A DNA stretch of 64,000 nucleotides from contig NZ_CP117430.1 of the NCBI RefSeq assembly GCF_030687395.1, positions 2,976,001 to 3,040,000 on the forward strand, read 5' to 3'. This stretch comes from Pseudomonas wuhanensis (GTDB lineage: Bacteria; Pseudomonadota; Gammaproteobacteria; Pseudomonadales; Pseudomonadaceae). Below are positions 508-64,000 of this stretch, piece after piece. The notes under the pieces are model-generated. The model was not told the origin of the DNA, searched no databases, and saw only the letters and a list, made by a program, of their open reading frames with translations. The stretch's first letter is position 1. Every line of letters begins with the position of its first letter. The translations under genes and the position numbers were made by a program.

Positions 508-556
508 TGCACTTTTATAAAGCGTCACGAGTAACAACCTGCACCAGTCGGTGGCG
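508..556 (+). promoter_or_regulatory. Candidate NtrC binding sites upstream of the chemoreceptor
   Basis: Two TGCAC-type half sites are seen: TGCACTTTTA at 508-517 and TGCACCAGT at 540-548, the latter followed by CGGTGGCG, which partly completes a TGCACCA...TGGTGCA-like dyad. The same two words occur with nearly the same spacing (32 versus 30 nt) upstream of nirB at 62005 and 62035. Both pairs lie about 175-185 nt upstream of a sigma-54 promoter, a normal enhancer position. Assignment to NtrC is inference from the consensus and from the nirB context. Confidence 0.5.
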
Positions 557-713
557 GCTTAATGAGCTTTGGCTTTCTTTAGTCCTCGCGTCTCGAGTGG
601 TTGACCTTGTCATTCGATTTTCCTGAGAAGTCGACTTAACCATTACCTGCACTCGCTTAAGCCGCAGTCGTTGCGATAATCCTCCGTGAATCAGCACATT
701 CTTCGCTACTAAG

Positions 714-729
714 TGGCACAAAGCCTGCA
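714..729 (+). promoter_or_regulatory. Sigma-54 (-24/-12) promoter of the chemoreceptor gene
   Basis: TGGCAC-AAAGC-CTGCA matches the sigma-54 consensus TGGCAC-N5-TTGCA. The invariant GG (715-716) and GC (727-728) are separated by exactly 10 nt. Transcription should start near 739-741. An almost identical element (TGGCAC-AAAGG-CTGCA) stands before nirB at 62221. Confidence 0.75.
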
Positions 730-776
730 CCGTTGACATCAGGCCCACCTGAAACGCATTCGTGTGGGCGGCCCCC

Positions 777-907
777 TCGGTCAATGACGATCGATTGGCT
801 GAACAGGTCGGGGGCAACAGGGGTATCAGGCGAAGGCGGCAGATCGACACCGCGAATGAACAGGCAAAGACGCCTGAAACCGAGAAGGTTTCAGGCGTTT
901 TTTTTTT
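777..907 (+). promoter_or_regulatory. ANTAR-type two-hairpin antitermination leader with intrinsic terminator
   Basis: Hairpin P1 has stem TCGGTC/GATCGA (777-782, 789-794) around the hexaloop AATGAC. Hairpin P2 has stem CAGGC/GCCTG (861-865, 872-876) around the hexaloop AAAGAC. Both loops carry A at position 1 and G at position 4, the signature of RNAs bound by ANTAR proteins such as NasT. The 5' arm of a 12-bp terminator stem (870-881 with 887-898, loop GAGAA, then a T run to 907) overlaps P2, so P2 and the terminator exclude each other. The nirB leader of this window has the same arrangement. Antitermination by NasT at nirB is known in P. aeruginosa; its use here is inferred. Confidence 0.8.
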
Positions 908-982
908 GCTTTATGAACGTGTTGGTGGCGACTGCCAATTGCTGTGCTGCCCGTCGGGCAGGCATTAATCGGGGAATAATTG

Positions 983-2602
983 ATGGTCAAGTTGAGCACG
1001 GCACAACGTATCGTTATCGGCTTTTTGATTGCACCGTTGGCACTGATGGGCATGGCATTTTACGCGTTGCTCGATCTGGCAACGCTCAAGGAACAGTCGG
1101 TGGTTATCGTCAAGCAGGATTGGCCAAAGATCGGGCCGATCATGGTGATTGCCACCGGTGTACGGGACAACGCCAGGAACACTCGGGATTTGTTGATCGA
1201 CAAAGAGAATCAGCAAGCGCATCAGGCCATCGATGCCACCAAAAAGCGCATCAGCGAGGCACTTGAAACGCTCCAGCCGTTGTTCGATCTACCGGAAGGC
1301 AAGGCTGCCTATGCTGTCCTGAAAAAGAATCGCGAGGCTTATGTCACCGCGTTCACCCAGGTGCAGGCGTTGATCAGGCAGGGCGCTTTTGATGCCGCGA
1401 TGGCGCAGTTGAAACAGCAAGTCATCCCCGCCGAACATGAAGTTCACAAAAGCCTGGACGCCCTGATGACGCTGCAAGGGAAGATTTTCGCCGATCGTGA
1501 AAGGTCGGCGCTTGTCCTGTACAGCGAAGCGCGTCGGAACATGTTGGTGTTGCTTGTATTCTGCCTGGCCTCGGTCATCGTCGCTGCGCTCATCGTTACG
1601 CGTAGTGTCACCCGACCGTTGGGTGGCGAGCCCGATGATGCGGCACGGCTCTTGAGTCAAATCGCGCAGGGCGATCTGACGATTCAAGTGCCGGTGAATG
1701 CAAGTGCCGACGGTAGTGTGATGATGAACATGCACCAGATGCAGCAAAGCTTGAGCGCGATGGTCAAGCACATCGCGGCGTCGGTCGATCGGGTGGCCAG
1801 TTCCTCCGAAGAGCTGAGCGCAGTCAGCAGCCAGACCAGTAGCAGTTTGCAGTTGCAGGGCCTGGAGATCGAACAGGCTGCAGCAGCGGTCAATCAAATG
1901 ACAGCAGCCGTCGACGAGGTCGCACGCAATGCGGTCAGCACCAGCGAGGCGTCTCGGGTGTCCGAGCAAACCGCGCAACGTGGTCGTGCGCAAGTTCAGG
2001 AAACGGTGGCCTCGATAGGTACGCTGGCGGACGGCATGACGGACACCTCGCAGCGTATCCAGCAGTTGGCCGGGCGCGTGCAGGACATCAGTACGGTGCT
2101 GGATGTGATTCGCAGCATTGCCGAGCAAACCAATTTACTGGCCCTCAACGCTGCGATTGAAGCAGCCCGTGCCGGTGATGCCGGACGTGGTTTTGCGGTG
2201 GTCGCCGATGAGGTGCGGGCACTGGCCCATCGCACTCAGGTGTCGACCCAGGAAATCGAGCAGATGATTGGCAACATTCGGCTGGATACCGGACACGCGG
2301 TGACCGCCATGCAAAGCAGTGGTCACCTGGTGCAGACGACCCTGGAAGTCGCGCAACGCTCCGGCGAAGCATTGGAAGAGATCACCCGGTCAATCTCGCA
2401 GATCAACGAGCGCAACATGATGATCGCCAGTGCTACGGAGGAGCAGGCACTGGTGGCGCGTGAGGTGGATCGCAATCTGATGGGCATTCGCAACTTATCC
2501 GAACAGGTTTTGCTGGGGGCCCGGCATACCGACAGCGCCGGGCTGGAGCTGGCGCAGATGGCCGGCGCACTGCACCAGACGGTGGCGCGCTTCAAAATCT
2601 AG
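983..2602 (+). CDS. Methyl-accepting chemotaxis protein with 4-helix-bundle sensor domain
   Basis: Membrane chemoreceptor of 539 residues. TM1 spans about residues 10-30 and is followed by a periplasmic domain of about 155 residues resembling the 4HB_MCP family. TM2 spans about 187-206, then come a HAMP segment and a long cytoplasmic coiled coil. The highly conserved hairpin tip lies at about 378-420 (EQTNLLALNAAIEAARAG, then GRGFAVVADEVR), the CheA/CheW contact region. I chose ATG 983 over the adjacent TTG 980 because GGGGA at 971-975 sits 7 nt upstream. There is no C-terminal CheR-tethering pentapeptide. The ligand is unknown; the PilJ-type nitrate motif of McpN is not visible. The gene follows a sigma-54 promoter and an ANTAR terminator leader shared with nirB, which points to a nitrogen-related attractant (inference). 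Confidence 0.93.
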   Translation: MVKLSTAQRIVIGFLIAPLALMGMAFYALLDLATLKEQSVVIVKQDWPKIGPIMVIATGVRDNARNTRDLLIDKENQQAHQAIDATKKRISEALETLQPLFDLPEGKAAYAVLKKNREAYVTAFTQVQALIRQGAFDAAMAQLKQQVIPAEHEVHKSLDALMTLQGKIFADRERSALVLYSEARRNMLVLLVFCLASVIVAALIVTRSVTRPLGGEPDDAARLLSQIAQGDLTIQVPVNASADGSVMMNMHQMQQSLSAMVKHIAASVDRVASSSEELSAVSSQTSSSLQLQGLEIEQAAAAVNQMTAAVDEVARNAVSTSEASRVSEQTAQRGRAQVQETVASIGTLADGMTDTSQRIQQLAGRVQDISTVLDVIRSIAEQTNLLALNAAIEAARAGDAGRGFAVVADEVRALAHRTQVSTQEIEQMIGNIRLDTGHAVTAMQSSGHLVQTTLEVAQRSGEALEEITRSISQINERNMMIASATEEQALVAREVDRNLMGIRNLSEQVLLGARHTDSAGLELAQMAGALHQTVARFKI

Positions 2603-61833: not shown

Positions 61834-61946
61834 CCTGTGGGAGCGGGCTTGCTCGCGAAGACGGCAGCACAGTCACTATTGATGTCGCCTGACACGCCGC
61901 TTTCGCGAGCAAGTCGAATCGTCGCACCGCCGCTCCCACAGGGATT
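61834..61946. repeat. REPIN with interrupted right arm
   Basis: Left arm CCTGTGGGAGCGGGCTTGCT at 61834-61853 is intact. The right arm is split: TTCGCGAGCAAG (61902-61913), about 16 extra nt, then CCGCTCCCACAGG (ending about 61942). Folding would leave a bulge. Located upstream of the nirB control region. Confidence 0.75.
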
Positions 61947-62004: not shown

Positions 62005-62050
62005 TGCACTTTTAAAGAGCCATGCCTGACAGCGTGCACCAGTGCGAAGC
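62005..62050 (+). promoter_or_regulatory. Candidate NtrC binding sites upstream of nirB
   Basis: TGCACTTTTA (62005) and TGCACCAGT (62035) repeat the pair found before the chemoreceptor (508, 540). They lie about 186 nt upstream of the sigma-54 promoter. The word GAGCT and a CTTCCTT/CTTTCTT tract after them are also shared, so the whole region is homologous. Confidence 0.5.
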
Positions 62051-62220
62051 GGTTTCCTGAGCTATTCCTTCCTTCAGCTCCCACGTCCGCCCACCCGCTC
62101 GCGGGGGCCTGCATAGTTGACTCGCGCCTGATGAAACCCGCCTGGGCCGCAGTCTTTATCAAATCCCCCCATCGTTCAGTAGCCGGTTTTCCAGAACTGA
62201 GAAAGTCATACGCCGCGGAC

Positions 62221-62236
62221 TGGCACAAAGGCTGCA
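62221..62236 (+). promoter_or_regulatory. Sigma-54 promoter of nirB
   Basis: TGGCAC-AAAGG-CTGCA with GG (62222-62223) and GC (62234-62235) 10 nt apart. RpoN-dependence of the nirBD operon is known in P. aeruginosa. Transcription should begin near 62246. Confidence 0.8.
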
Positions 62237-62275
62237 TTACCCCTTCAGCCTCATCTGAAAAAGAGGGGCAGCCCC

Positions 62276-62407
62276 GTCGATCAACGAAGATCGACCGGCC
62301 GAGCAGGTCGTGGGCAACATCGGTGGATCAGGCGAAGGCGCCAGGTCGAACACCGCGAAGAACAGGCAAAGACGCCTGGAACCGAGAGGTTTCAGGCGTT
62401 TTTTTTT
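62276..62407 (+). promoter_or_regulatory. ANTAR (NasT) antitermination leader and terminator of nirB
   Basis: P1: stem GTCGATC/GATCGAC (62276-62282, 62289-62295) with hexaloop AACGAA. P2: CAGGC/GCCTG (62363-62367, 62374-62378) with hexaloop AAAGAC. Terminator: ACGCCTGGAACC/GGTTTCAGGCGT (62372-62383, 62388-62399), loop GAGA, T run to 62407. P2 and the terminator share bases. NasS/NasT-controlled antitermination in the nirB leader is established in P. aeruginosa. Confidence 0.85.
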
Positions 62408-62446
62408 GCTTTTTTAACCGTGATTGGCTTTGGCTGGGTGCTTACT

Positions 62447-64000
62447 ATGAATTCCAATGTTGCCGCGTTGAACAAACTGCAAACACTGATCGTGATCGGC
62501 AATGGCATGGTCGGACATCATTGTGTCGAGCAGCTCATCGAGCGCGGCGCCCTCGACCATTACCGCCTGCATGTCTTCAGCGAAGAGCCGATGCGCGCCT
62601 ACGACCGGGTGCATCTGTCGGAGTATTTCGGCGGTCGCGATGCCGAGTCGCTGGCCCTGGGCGAAGCCTCTCTCTATCAGACGCCAGGCGTAACCCTGCA
62701 TCTGGGCGTGCCGGTGCTGGAAATCGACCGAGCTCGACGCCAGGTGATCACTGCACAAGGTTGCGTCGCTTACGACAAACTGGTTCTGGCCACCGGTTCT
62801 TATCCGTTTGTGCCGCCTATTGAAGGTGCAGAAGGCGACTCGCGCCTGGTCTATCGCACCCTTGAAGACCTCGACGCGATTCGTACCGCGGCAGCCAATG
62901 CCAAGCGTGGCGTAGTAGTCGGTGGTGGCCTGCTCGGTCTGGAAGCCGCCAACGCCCTGAAAAGCCTCGGCCTGGAAGCCCATGTGGTGGAATTCGCCCC
63001 GCGCCTGATGCCGGTGCAGCTGGACGAGCAGGGTGGCTTGGCGCTGAAGGCGCAAATCGAGCGACTTGGCGTTGGCGTGCACCTGTCCCGTGGCACGCAG
63101 TCGATCAGCGCCGGCGAGCAGTACCGCTACCGGATGAATTTTGCCAATGAAGAATTCCTCGAAGCCGACCTGATCGTGTTCTCCGCCGGCATCCGCCCGC
63201 AGGATGCGCTGGCCCGCCAATGCGCGCTGGACATCGGGCCGCGTGGCGGCGTGGTGATTGACGATCAGTGCCTGACCAGCGATCCGAACATCTACGCCAT
63301 CGGCGAGTGCGCTGCCTGGAATGGCAGCCTCTTCGGTCTGGTCGCCCCCGGCTATCAAATGGCCCGTGGCGTCGCGACGCTGCTGTGCAATCAAGTGGCG
63401 GAGCCGTTTCAGGGCGCCGACATGTCGACCAAGCTCAAACTGCTTGGCGTCGATGTCGGCTCCATCGGCGATGCTCACGCCCAAACGCCGGGTGCGCGCA
63501 GTTATCAGTTCATCGATGAAGCCACGGCCAGCTACCGTCGTCTGGTGGTAGATGCCGACAGCAAGCGCGTGCTCGGCGCGGTGTTGGTTGGCGACAACAG
63601 CTATTACGACACCCTGCTGCAATACATGCAGAACGGCATTGCCTTGCCGTCGGAACCGGCCAGCCTGATTCTGCCATCGTCCACCGGCGCGCCAACCCTG
63701 GGCCCAGGCGCGTTGCCTGAGTCGGCAACGGTGTGTTCTTGCCATAACGTCACCAAGGGTTCGATCTGCTCGGCCATCGACGGCGGCTGCACCGACCTGG
63801 GCCTGCTTAAGTCGCAGACCAAGGCTTGCACCGGTTGCGGCGGTTGCGCGGGGCTGCTCAAGCAAGTGTTCGAGCATGAACTGATTGCTCGTGGCGTCAG
63901 TGTCGACAAGAGCTTGTGCGAACACTTCGCCTACACCCGTCAGGAGCTTTATGCACTGGTGCGAGTAGAAGGGGTGATCACTTTCGAAGAACTGCTGGCC
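62447..64000 (+). CDS. nirB: Assimilatory nitrite reductase large subunit (5' part)
   Basis: 518 codons visible, cut by the window end; the full protein is about 850 residues. FAD-binding VIGNGMVGHHCVEQL at about 16-30, NAD site VVGGGLLGLEAANAL at about 155-169, and a BFD-type [2Fe-2S] domain with CSCHN and CTGCGGCAG near 425-465. The sirohaem/[4Fe-4S] half lies outside. It reduces nitrite to ammonia with NAD(P)H and siroheme. ATG 62447 has only a weak GG-rich ribosome site. Controlled by the upstream sigma-54/ANTAR cassette. Confidence 0.95.
   Translation, partial: MNSNVAALNKLQTLIVIGNGMVGHHCVEQLIERGALDHYRLHVFSEEPMRAYDRVHLSEYFGGRDAESLALGEASLYQTPGVTLHLGVPVLEIDRARRQVITAQGCVAYDKLVLATGSYPFVPPIEGAEGDSRLVYRTLEDLDAIRTAAANAKRGVVVGGGLLGLEAANALKSLGLEAHVVEFAPRLMPVQLDEQGGLALKAQIERLGVGVHLSRGTQSISAGEQYRYRMNFANEEFLEADLIVFSAGIRPQDALARQCALDIGPRGGVVIDDQCLTSDPNIYAIGECAAWNGSLFGLVAPGYQMARGVATLLCNQVAEPFQGADMSTKLKLLGVDVGSIGDAHAQTPGARSYQFIDEATASYRRLVVDADSKRVLGAVLVGDNSYYDTLLQYMQNGIALPSEPASLILPSSTGAPTLGPGALPESATVCSCHNVTKGSICSAIDGGCTDLGLLKSQTKACTGCGGCAGLLKQVFEHELIARGVSVDKSLCEHFAYTRQELYALVRVEGVITFEELLA

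Follow-up and report, generated by a model that had tools for sequence, protein, structure and literature searches.

A nirB-type leader upstream of a chemoreceptor gene in Pseudomonas wuhanensis and its probable link to nitrate assimilation

This analysis concerns a chemoreceptor gene and its leader in a stretch of 64,000 nucleotides of the Pseudomonas wuhanensis genome (assembly GCF_030687395.1, contig NZ_CP117430.1, positions 2,976,001 to 3,040,000 of the forward strand), here called the window, and their relationship to the nirB gene and leader at the other end of the same window. An initial annotation had claimed that both genes carry one regulatory cassette, consisting of a pair of TGCAC words, a sigma-54 (-24/-12) promoter, two hairpins termed P1 and P2, and a terminator that overlaps P2. 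Direct reading of the window confirms each of these parts in its place (Table 1), and the span given for the chemoreceptor region, 508-983, is correct, with the start codon at 983-985.

The chemoreceptor gene and its leader

The product of the chemoreceptor gene matches PF12729 (4HB_MCP_1, 2.3e-19) and PF00015 (MCPsignal, 9.3e-43), and its structure model presents a four-helix sensor domain (pLDDT 86.7). The PilJ sensor domain that marks McpN-type receptors was not found, as Pfam at E<=0.001 yields 4HB_MCP_1 and MCPsignal only. The model is closest to MCP2201 and PcaY_PP, both solved with organic acids, and less close to nitrate sensors, although such scores are common in this fold class. Directly before the ribosome-binding site of the gene, at 947-961, stands a hairpin CTGCCC-GTC-GGGCAG, and altered versions of it precede the receptor in many of the leader, CBS-domain gene and nrdG settings described below.

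The chemoreceptor and nirB leaders are collinear and can be aligned from the NtrC-type words through the T-run (508-982 against 62005-62446), with 85% identity over 153 nucleotides by blastn. The TGCAC words of the chemoreceptor leader begin at 508 and 540, each within a GC-N11-GC element, which is the spacing of NtrC sites reported for P. stutzeri (PMC8443478). Both hairpins carry loops of six nucleotides with A at the first and G at the fourth position (A1 and G4), and transcription is expected to start near 740. Over the portion inside the window, nirB itself has the Pfam domains expected of it. Upstream of its promoter region, at about 61834-61943, lies an inverted repeat whose arms resemble TGTGGGAGCGGGCTTGCTCGCGA, which we take to be similar to the repetitive extragenic palindromic (REP) elements of Pseudomonas.

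The match between the two leaders was placed into genomic context with a covariance model (R1) built from 26 of 27 nirB leaders, including that of the window genome, and from no chemoreceptor leader; L013 was omitted as a near copy of L011. Against the whole 6.59-Mb genome, R1 finds the nirB leader at E = 5.3e-33 and the chemoreceptor leader at E = 8.3e-25. Seven places are returned at E<=10, of which the remaining five are weak (9.5e-6 to 0.0054); two of them are the opposite strands of the nirB and chemoreceptor leaders, and the next best other place reaches 9.5e-6 over 76 nucleotides. The 16-nucleotide P2 pattern CAGGCANNGNNGCCTG occurs three times in the genome, twice in the nirB and chemoreceptor leaders and once at G000:C1:304022-304037, and the reversed pattern, used as a control, has no occurrence. 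Across the genus sample, R1 has a match at E<=0.01 in 265 of 398 genomes, the weaker of which are not necessarily leaders. A cassette search matched 68 of 149 genomes, and among the 31 loci examined (L002-L032), 27 precede nirB and 4 the receptor. nirB-type leaders also precede a NirC-type formate/nitrite transporter gene and a small CBS-domain gene; the latter is followed by the receptor in L184 and by no receptor match within the stretch covered in L136, L149 and L166. Rfam 15 has nothing at gathering score in the window, and at E<=10 returns no ANTAR-named family for either leader, whether Rfam 15 includes one not having been checked; weak matches of both leaders at that threshold were taken as chance. 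Homology to the nirB leaders, NtrC-type sites together with a -24/-12 promoter, and NasS-NasT in the genome are all present, and the chemoreceptor leader is classed here as a nirB-type leader and not as a canonical dual-hairpin ANTAR RNA.

Comparison of orthologous leaders adds a further line of evidence. In the leader tree, the window chemoreceptor leader branches as sister to the corresponding leaders of Pseudomonas sp. ACN8 and PICF141 with support of 98/95, and it is therefore regarded as inherited and not freshly copied; this grouping also rules out recent copying from the nirB leader of the same genome. Relative to PICF141, P1 (18/18), the sigma-54 promoter (17/17), P2 with the terminator (35/38) and the NtrC sites (31/34) are conserved, while the linker between P1 and P2 (48/70), the 5' untranslated region (23/37) and the spacer (90/156) drift. 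The contrast is smaller against the closer ACN8 (linker 59/67, spacer 107/156, P1 18/18, P2 with terminator 37/38). Conserved elements amid a drifting linker and spacer form, as judged from these alignments, the pattern that selection on a working cassette would leave. Of 16 leaders of the receptor or of a CBS-domain gene and the receptor, 13 have one or more NtrC-type sites (TGCAC-like, GC-N11-GC), against an expectation per 250 nucleotides of about 0.03 from shuffling or 0.12 from the window's own frequency. A pair spaced by 30-32 nucleotides is present in 9 of these 16 and in 15 of the 17 nirB leaders, out of 27, that the scan covered. The sequence CGGCAC..TTGC upstream of most other orthologues was rejected as a sigma-54 promoter, as it lies inside the nrdG coding sequence.

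Table 1. Features of the chemoreceptor and nirB regions, in window positions
Feature	Positions	Strand	Remarks
NtrC-type site 1, TGCACTTTTATAAAGC (GC-N11-GC)	508-523	+	read directly; same element upstream of nirB and in related leaders
NtrC-type site 2, TGCACCAGTCGGTGGC	540-555	+	32 nt from site 1
Sigma-54 -24/-12 promoter TGGCAC-AAAGC-CTGCA	714-729	+	713-729 identical in ACN8 and PICF141
P1 hairpin TCGGTC-AATGAC-GATCGA	777-794	+	hexaloop AATGAC at 783-788
P1-P2 linker	795-860	+	66 nt, diverged
P2 hairpin CAGGC-AAAGAC-GCCTG	861-876	+	hexaloop AAAGAC at 866-871; overlaps terminator 5' arm
Intrinsic terminator, 12-bp stem and T-run	870-907	+	5' arm 870-881, 3' arm 887-898, T-run 898-907
Chemoreceptor gene, 4HB_MCP_1 sensor domain and MCPsignal	983-2602	+	ATG at 983; 539 aa
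nirB NtrC-type site 1	62005-62020	+	TGCAC word at 62005
nirB NtrC-type site 2	62035-62050	+	TGCAC word at 62035
nirB sigma-54 -24/-12 promoter TGGCAC-AAAGG-CTGCA	62221-62236	+	
nirB P1 hairpin, 7 bp	62276-62295	+	hexaloop AACGAA; linker to P2 67 nt
nirB P2 hairpin	62363-62378	+	hexaloop AAAGAC
nirB intrinsic terminator including T-run	62372-62407	+	hairpin 62372-62399
nirB, assimilatory nitrite reductase large subunit	62447-64000	+	ATG at 62447; extends past window end

Structure of the leader RNA

RNAalifold, applied to an alignment of 36 leaders (26 of nirB and 10 before the receptor or before a CBS-domain gene and the receptor), recovers P1 and the terminator, and P1 is present in all 36. 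For P1 and the terminator together, the observed covariation is not attained by any of 500 shuffles on four of five measures and is attained by 9 of 500 on the fifth, with all slid controls below the observed values. The base pairs of P2 are invariant, and covariation is consequently uninformative on this hairpin. A helix enclosing P1, termed P0, is unsupported, with 69-84% of cells paired and no two-sided change. The loop statistics cover 78 distinct leaders from a total of 102 found. G4 of both loops and A1 of P2 are present in all 78, and loop positions 3, 5 and 6 vary; the leader finder demanded the P2 stem as well as A1 and A2 in P1, which are constant by construction, and it could see linkers of about 29 to 103 nucleotides.

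In silico folding shows P2 and the terminator to be mutually exclusive in the chemoreceptor leader, P2 having a probability of 0.97 without the 3' arm of the terminator and of 0.0000 with it. Without the 3' arm, P2 reaches at least 0.85 in 35 of the 37 leaders folded, with a value of 0.08 in L065; the values obtained for L004 and L051 refer instead to a hairpin in the middle of the linker. Such a mid-linker, P2-like hairpin with an A1/G4 hexaloop is found in many nirB leaders (L004, L005 and L011, and also L183) and is degenerate in both window leaders.

Gene settings of the receptor

Relatives of the sensor domain (E<=1e-30) are present in 62 of 398 genus genomes. Ten of these orthologues have a nirB-type leader within 700 nucleotides upstream, seven directly and three via a CBS-domain gene (one broken), and another two belong to a nirB-nirD-mcp arrangement that follows the nirB leader, giving 12 of 62. 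A second set, which overlaps with the first, holds 76 receptor loci gathered through exact peptide words; it is biased to closer relatives and possibly lacks the window genome. Here, the arrangements are nrdG-mcp (52), leader-mcp (8, of which seven were called by script and L233 by eye), leader-CBS-mcp (7), nirB-nirD-mcp (5), nirB-nirD-CBS-mcp (1) and others (3), so that 21 of 76 receptor relatives stand behind a nirB-type leader, directly, via the CBS gene, or, in six cases, within a nirBD operon. The nirB leader carries P1 and P2 in all six nirBD-receptor loci. In a quick receptor tree of 77 rows (the 76 and the window), the rows with a nitrate-assimilation setting form four clusters of 13, 5, 2 and 2, and a minimum of three switches between nitrate-assimilation and nrdG settings is required, counted without direction and without the three other loci.

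The nrdG gene, which precedes the receptor in the 52 loci mentioned (within L171-L246), encodes the activase of anaerobic ribonucleotide reductase, and this setting suggests an anaerobic context in those species. The interval from nrdG to the receptor gene contains a terminator-like hairpin of another kind in L063, L073, L075, L076 and L086.

The window genome retains nirB-nirD-CBS, continuing past the window end, and its receptor stands alone; about 165 kb separate nrdDG from this receptor, and the gene next after nrdDG is a convergent one and not a receptor gene. As P. jessenii DSM 17150 (L183) has nirB-nirD-CBS-mcp, all behind one leader, where the window genome has nirB-nirD-CBS and a solitary receptor, operon fission in which a copy of the leader was retained is likely and would be the simplest account of the window arrangement. 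A second, non-orthologous 4HB chemoreceptor gene is located about 120 nucleotides behind nirB-nirD-CBS in the window genome (L257:3988-5601, start codon uncertain), and in at least 12 genomes a relative of it shares the strand of a nirB-type leader and follows it at a distance of about 5 kb or less.

Regulatory interpretation and comparison with known systems

A search at E<=0.001 finds a single ANTAR-domain protein in the genome, a receiver-ANTAR protein of 191 amino acids that adjoins an NMT1-like protein and a NarK-family nitrate/nitrite transporter. On the basis of domains and neighborhood, the receiver-ANTAR protein is named NasT here and its NMT1-like neighbor NasS. In published accounts, RpoN, NtrC and NasT control nirBD, which is expressed when nitrogen is low and nitrate and nitrite are present (PMC8092218), and the nirBD-PA1779-cobA operon of P. 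aeruginosa is subject to NasT antitermination (PMC8092218, PMC7801951). For Paracoccus, nitrate or nitrite is reported to dissociate NasS-NasT, after which NasT binds the nasA leader RNA, free NasT being oligomeric (PMC3795266).

As the receptor gene carries the same cassette as nirB, the same control is implied, and we consider it very probable that this chemoreceptor gene belongs to the NtrC/NasT nitrate-assimilation regulon. When nitrogen is limiting, NtrC at 508-555 would activate sigma-54 polymerase at 714-729, and by default the transcript would end at the terminator. Binding of nitrate or nitrite to NasS would release NasT, which could then bind the hexaloops of P1 and P2 and hold P2 in place, blocking the 5' arm of the terminator and allowing transcription to continue into the receptor gene. 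The parts of the leader, their homology to the nirB leader and conservation, the exclusion of P2 by the terminator in silico and the nasS and nasT genes are observed, and from them we infer binding of NtrC and NasT, a response to nitrate and the point of transcription start. The proposal of NtrC/NasT control made in the initial annotation is supported by the single ANTAR protein, the match to R1, and the cross-species conservation with some compensatory changes, and also by the recurrent placement of the receptor behind nirB-type leaders or inside nirBD operons.

A number of observations weigh against this assignment. No NtrC-type site is detected by the search pattern in 3 of 16 chemoreceptor leaders, and 52 of the 76 relatives have the receptor behind nrdG with no nirB-type leader, so that control by nitrate assimilation is not intrinsic to the receptor. 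The covariation of P1 is thin, with two pairs showing two-sided change in one sequence each, and P0, P1 and P2 jointly fail to beat shuffles. In the chemoreceptor leader, P1 has an equilibrium competitor, an alternative hairpin of 9 bp, and the probability of P1 falls from 0.93 in the nascent RNA to 0.20 after the linker is made; it is at most 0.20 in 9 of the 37 leaders folded. The published record adds caution: Bradyrhizobium narK has a NasT-type hairpin and yet is reported to rise in a nasT mutant, and the majority of NasT-affected genes there are described as having no such hairpin (PMC6759348). Because of the behavior of narK, a leader alone is no proof of activation. In P. aeruginosa, moreover, nitrate represses the chemoreceptor gene mcpN (PA2788), whose transcript level is about 16-fold higher when nitrate is limiting (PMC6381276), a logic opposite to that proposed here, and for this reason the ligand of the window receptor should not be taken to be nitrate.

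The length of the linker is a further point of the same kind. The values of 66 and 67 nucleotides in the initial annotation are correct, but they are a shared trait far beyond the range tested for ANTAR RNAs. Linkers of EutV-type eut leaders are reported to measure 5-12 nucleotides, with 14 reducing induction and 20 extra nucleotides abolishing EutV antitermination (PMC3369931, PMC8934654), and a curated actinobacterial set of ANTAR RNAs has linkers of 2-25 nucleotides (PMC8164766); the seed definition of 2012 permitted a variable linker. A long linker is common to the other nirB-type leaders examined, with 36-86 nucleotides across the 78 leaders (61-71 in 64 of them) and 41-71 in 16 chemoreceptor leaders. 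As nirB is a published target of NasT, it follows that NasT tolerates or folds a long linker or that P1 acts differently, and perhaps a NasT oligomer could bridge the distance. If the receptor is under NasT control, how NasT spans 41-71 nucleotides where EutV fails at 20 added would become a testable question.

This difficulty lends some weight to an unlikely possibility, namely that the switch is real and that NasT uses P2 with the mid-linker hairpin, or P2 alone. Many nirB leaders have the mid-linker A1/G4 hexaloop hairpin nearer to P2, and the distance to P1 exceeds the tested limits. The mid-linker hairpin, however, lacks A1 in the chemoreceptor leader, and three leaders with short linkers (L052, L065 and L092) do not have it, whereas every aligned leader has P1. 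It could also be supposed that the leader is a relic of operon fission, copied together with the receptor from a nirBD operon and now a promoter-terminator remnant free of NasT control. The comparison of P. jessenii with the window genome provides for such a history, but the inherited position of the leader beside those of ACN8 and PICF141 and the retention of functional elements while linker and spacer drift make this quite improbable. We give still less credence to the idea that the terminated leader is itself a small RNA dependent on NtrC and sigma-54, with receptor expression as a minor by-product. The nitrogen-regulated NrsZ, reported as controlled by NtrC/RpoN, is a Pseudomonas precedent (PMC8395346), and the chemoreceptor leader is well folded and has a strong terminator (z -4.0); yet no Rfam match comes near the cut-off, and what orthologous leaders preserve is P1, P2 and the terminator, just as would be predicted for an ANTAR switch.

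Control by NtrC and NasT would mean that the receptor is co-produced with nirB and that one chemotactic response is conditional on nitrate assimilation, the sensor probably being made only once the cell is ready to live on nitrate. We lean toward the broader view that Pseudomonas has repeatedly wired a chemoreceptor into its nitrate regulon, through a nirBD-mcp operon, through the CBS gene, or through a private nirB promoter and NasT switch, placing chemotaxis under the AND logic of nirB (nitrogen-poor and nitrate or nitrite present) with ANTAR hairpins bridged over an unusually long linker. Most likely, the type of regulon is the one already known, and the chemoreceptor is an unusual but recurrent target of it. 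If so, nitrate-responsive transcription antitermination would set what the cell swims toward, the reverse of nitrate repression of mcpN, and the ligand could be sought through taxis confined to nitrogen-limited, nitrate-grown cells. The nrdG, nirBD, CBS and solo settings of one receptor also indicate that a sensor can change regulons through leader capture.

Among known systems, the nearest is the Pseudomonas nirB leader, with which the chemoreceptor leader shares NtrC-type sites, a -24/-12 promoter, P1, P2, a terminator and the long linker; the difference is that it drives a chemoreceptor and not a nitrite reductase. The leader of P. aeruginosa was not identified in the genomes compared. With the targets of EutV, NasR and AmiR, the chemoreceptor leader has in common two A1/G4 hexaloop hairpins, a P2 that overlaps the terminator, and an ANTAR protein in the genome, and its 66-nucleotide linker sets it apart from the short-linker dual-hairpin RNAs of eut genes and actinobacteria. 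The statement in the initial annotation that no chemoreceptor had been described under ANTAR antitermination calls for one footnote: a supplementary-figure legend of PMC3369931 mentions a putative ANTAR RNA that overlaps the start of a methyl-accepting chemotaxis gene together with its ribosome-binding site, and offers possible translational control. Among the titles and openings of abstracts listed in a literature search, no chemoreceptor under NasT/ANTAR antitermination was found beyond this legend. The chemoreceptor genes PST2280 and PST2508 of P. stutzeri A1501 are similar by description, with putative NtrC sites and lower expression in an ntrC mutant; the accessible part of that account (PMC8443478) mentions no antitermination leader, which the window receptor has. 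Finally, McpN offers the parallel of a chemoreceptor whose gene responds to nitrate, a response that is predicted for the window receptor, but where McpN is described as having a PilJ domain and being nitrate-repressed, the window receptor has a 4HB_MCP_1 domain and a predicted induction by nitrate or nitrite.

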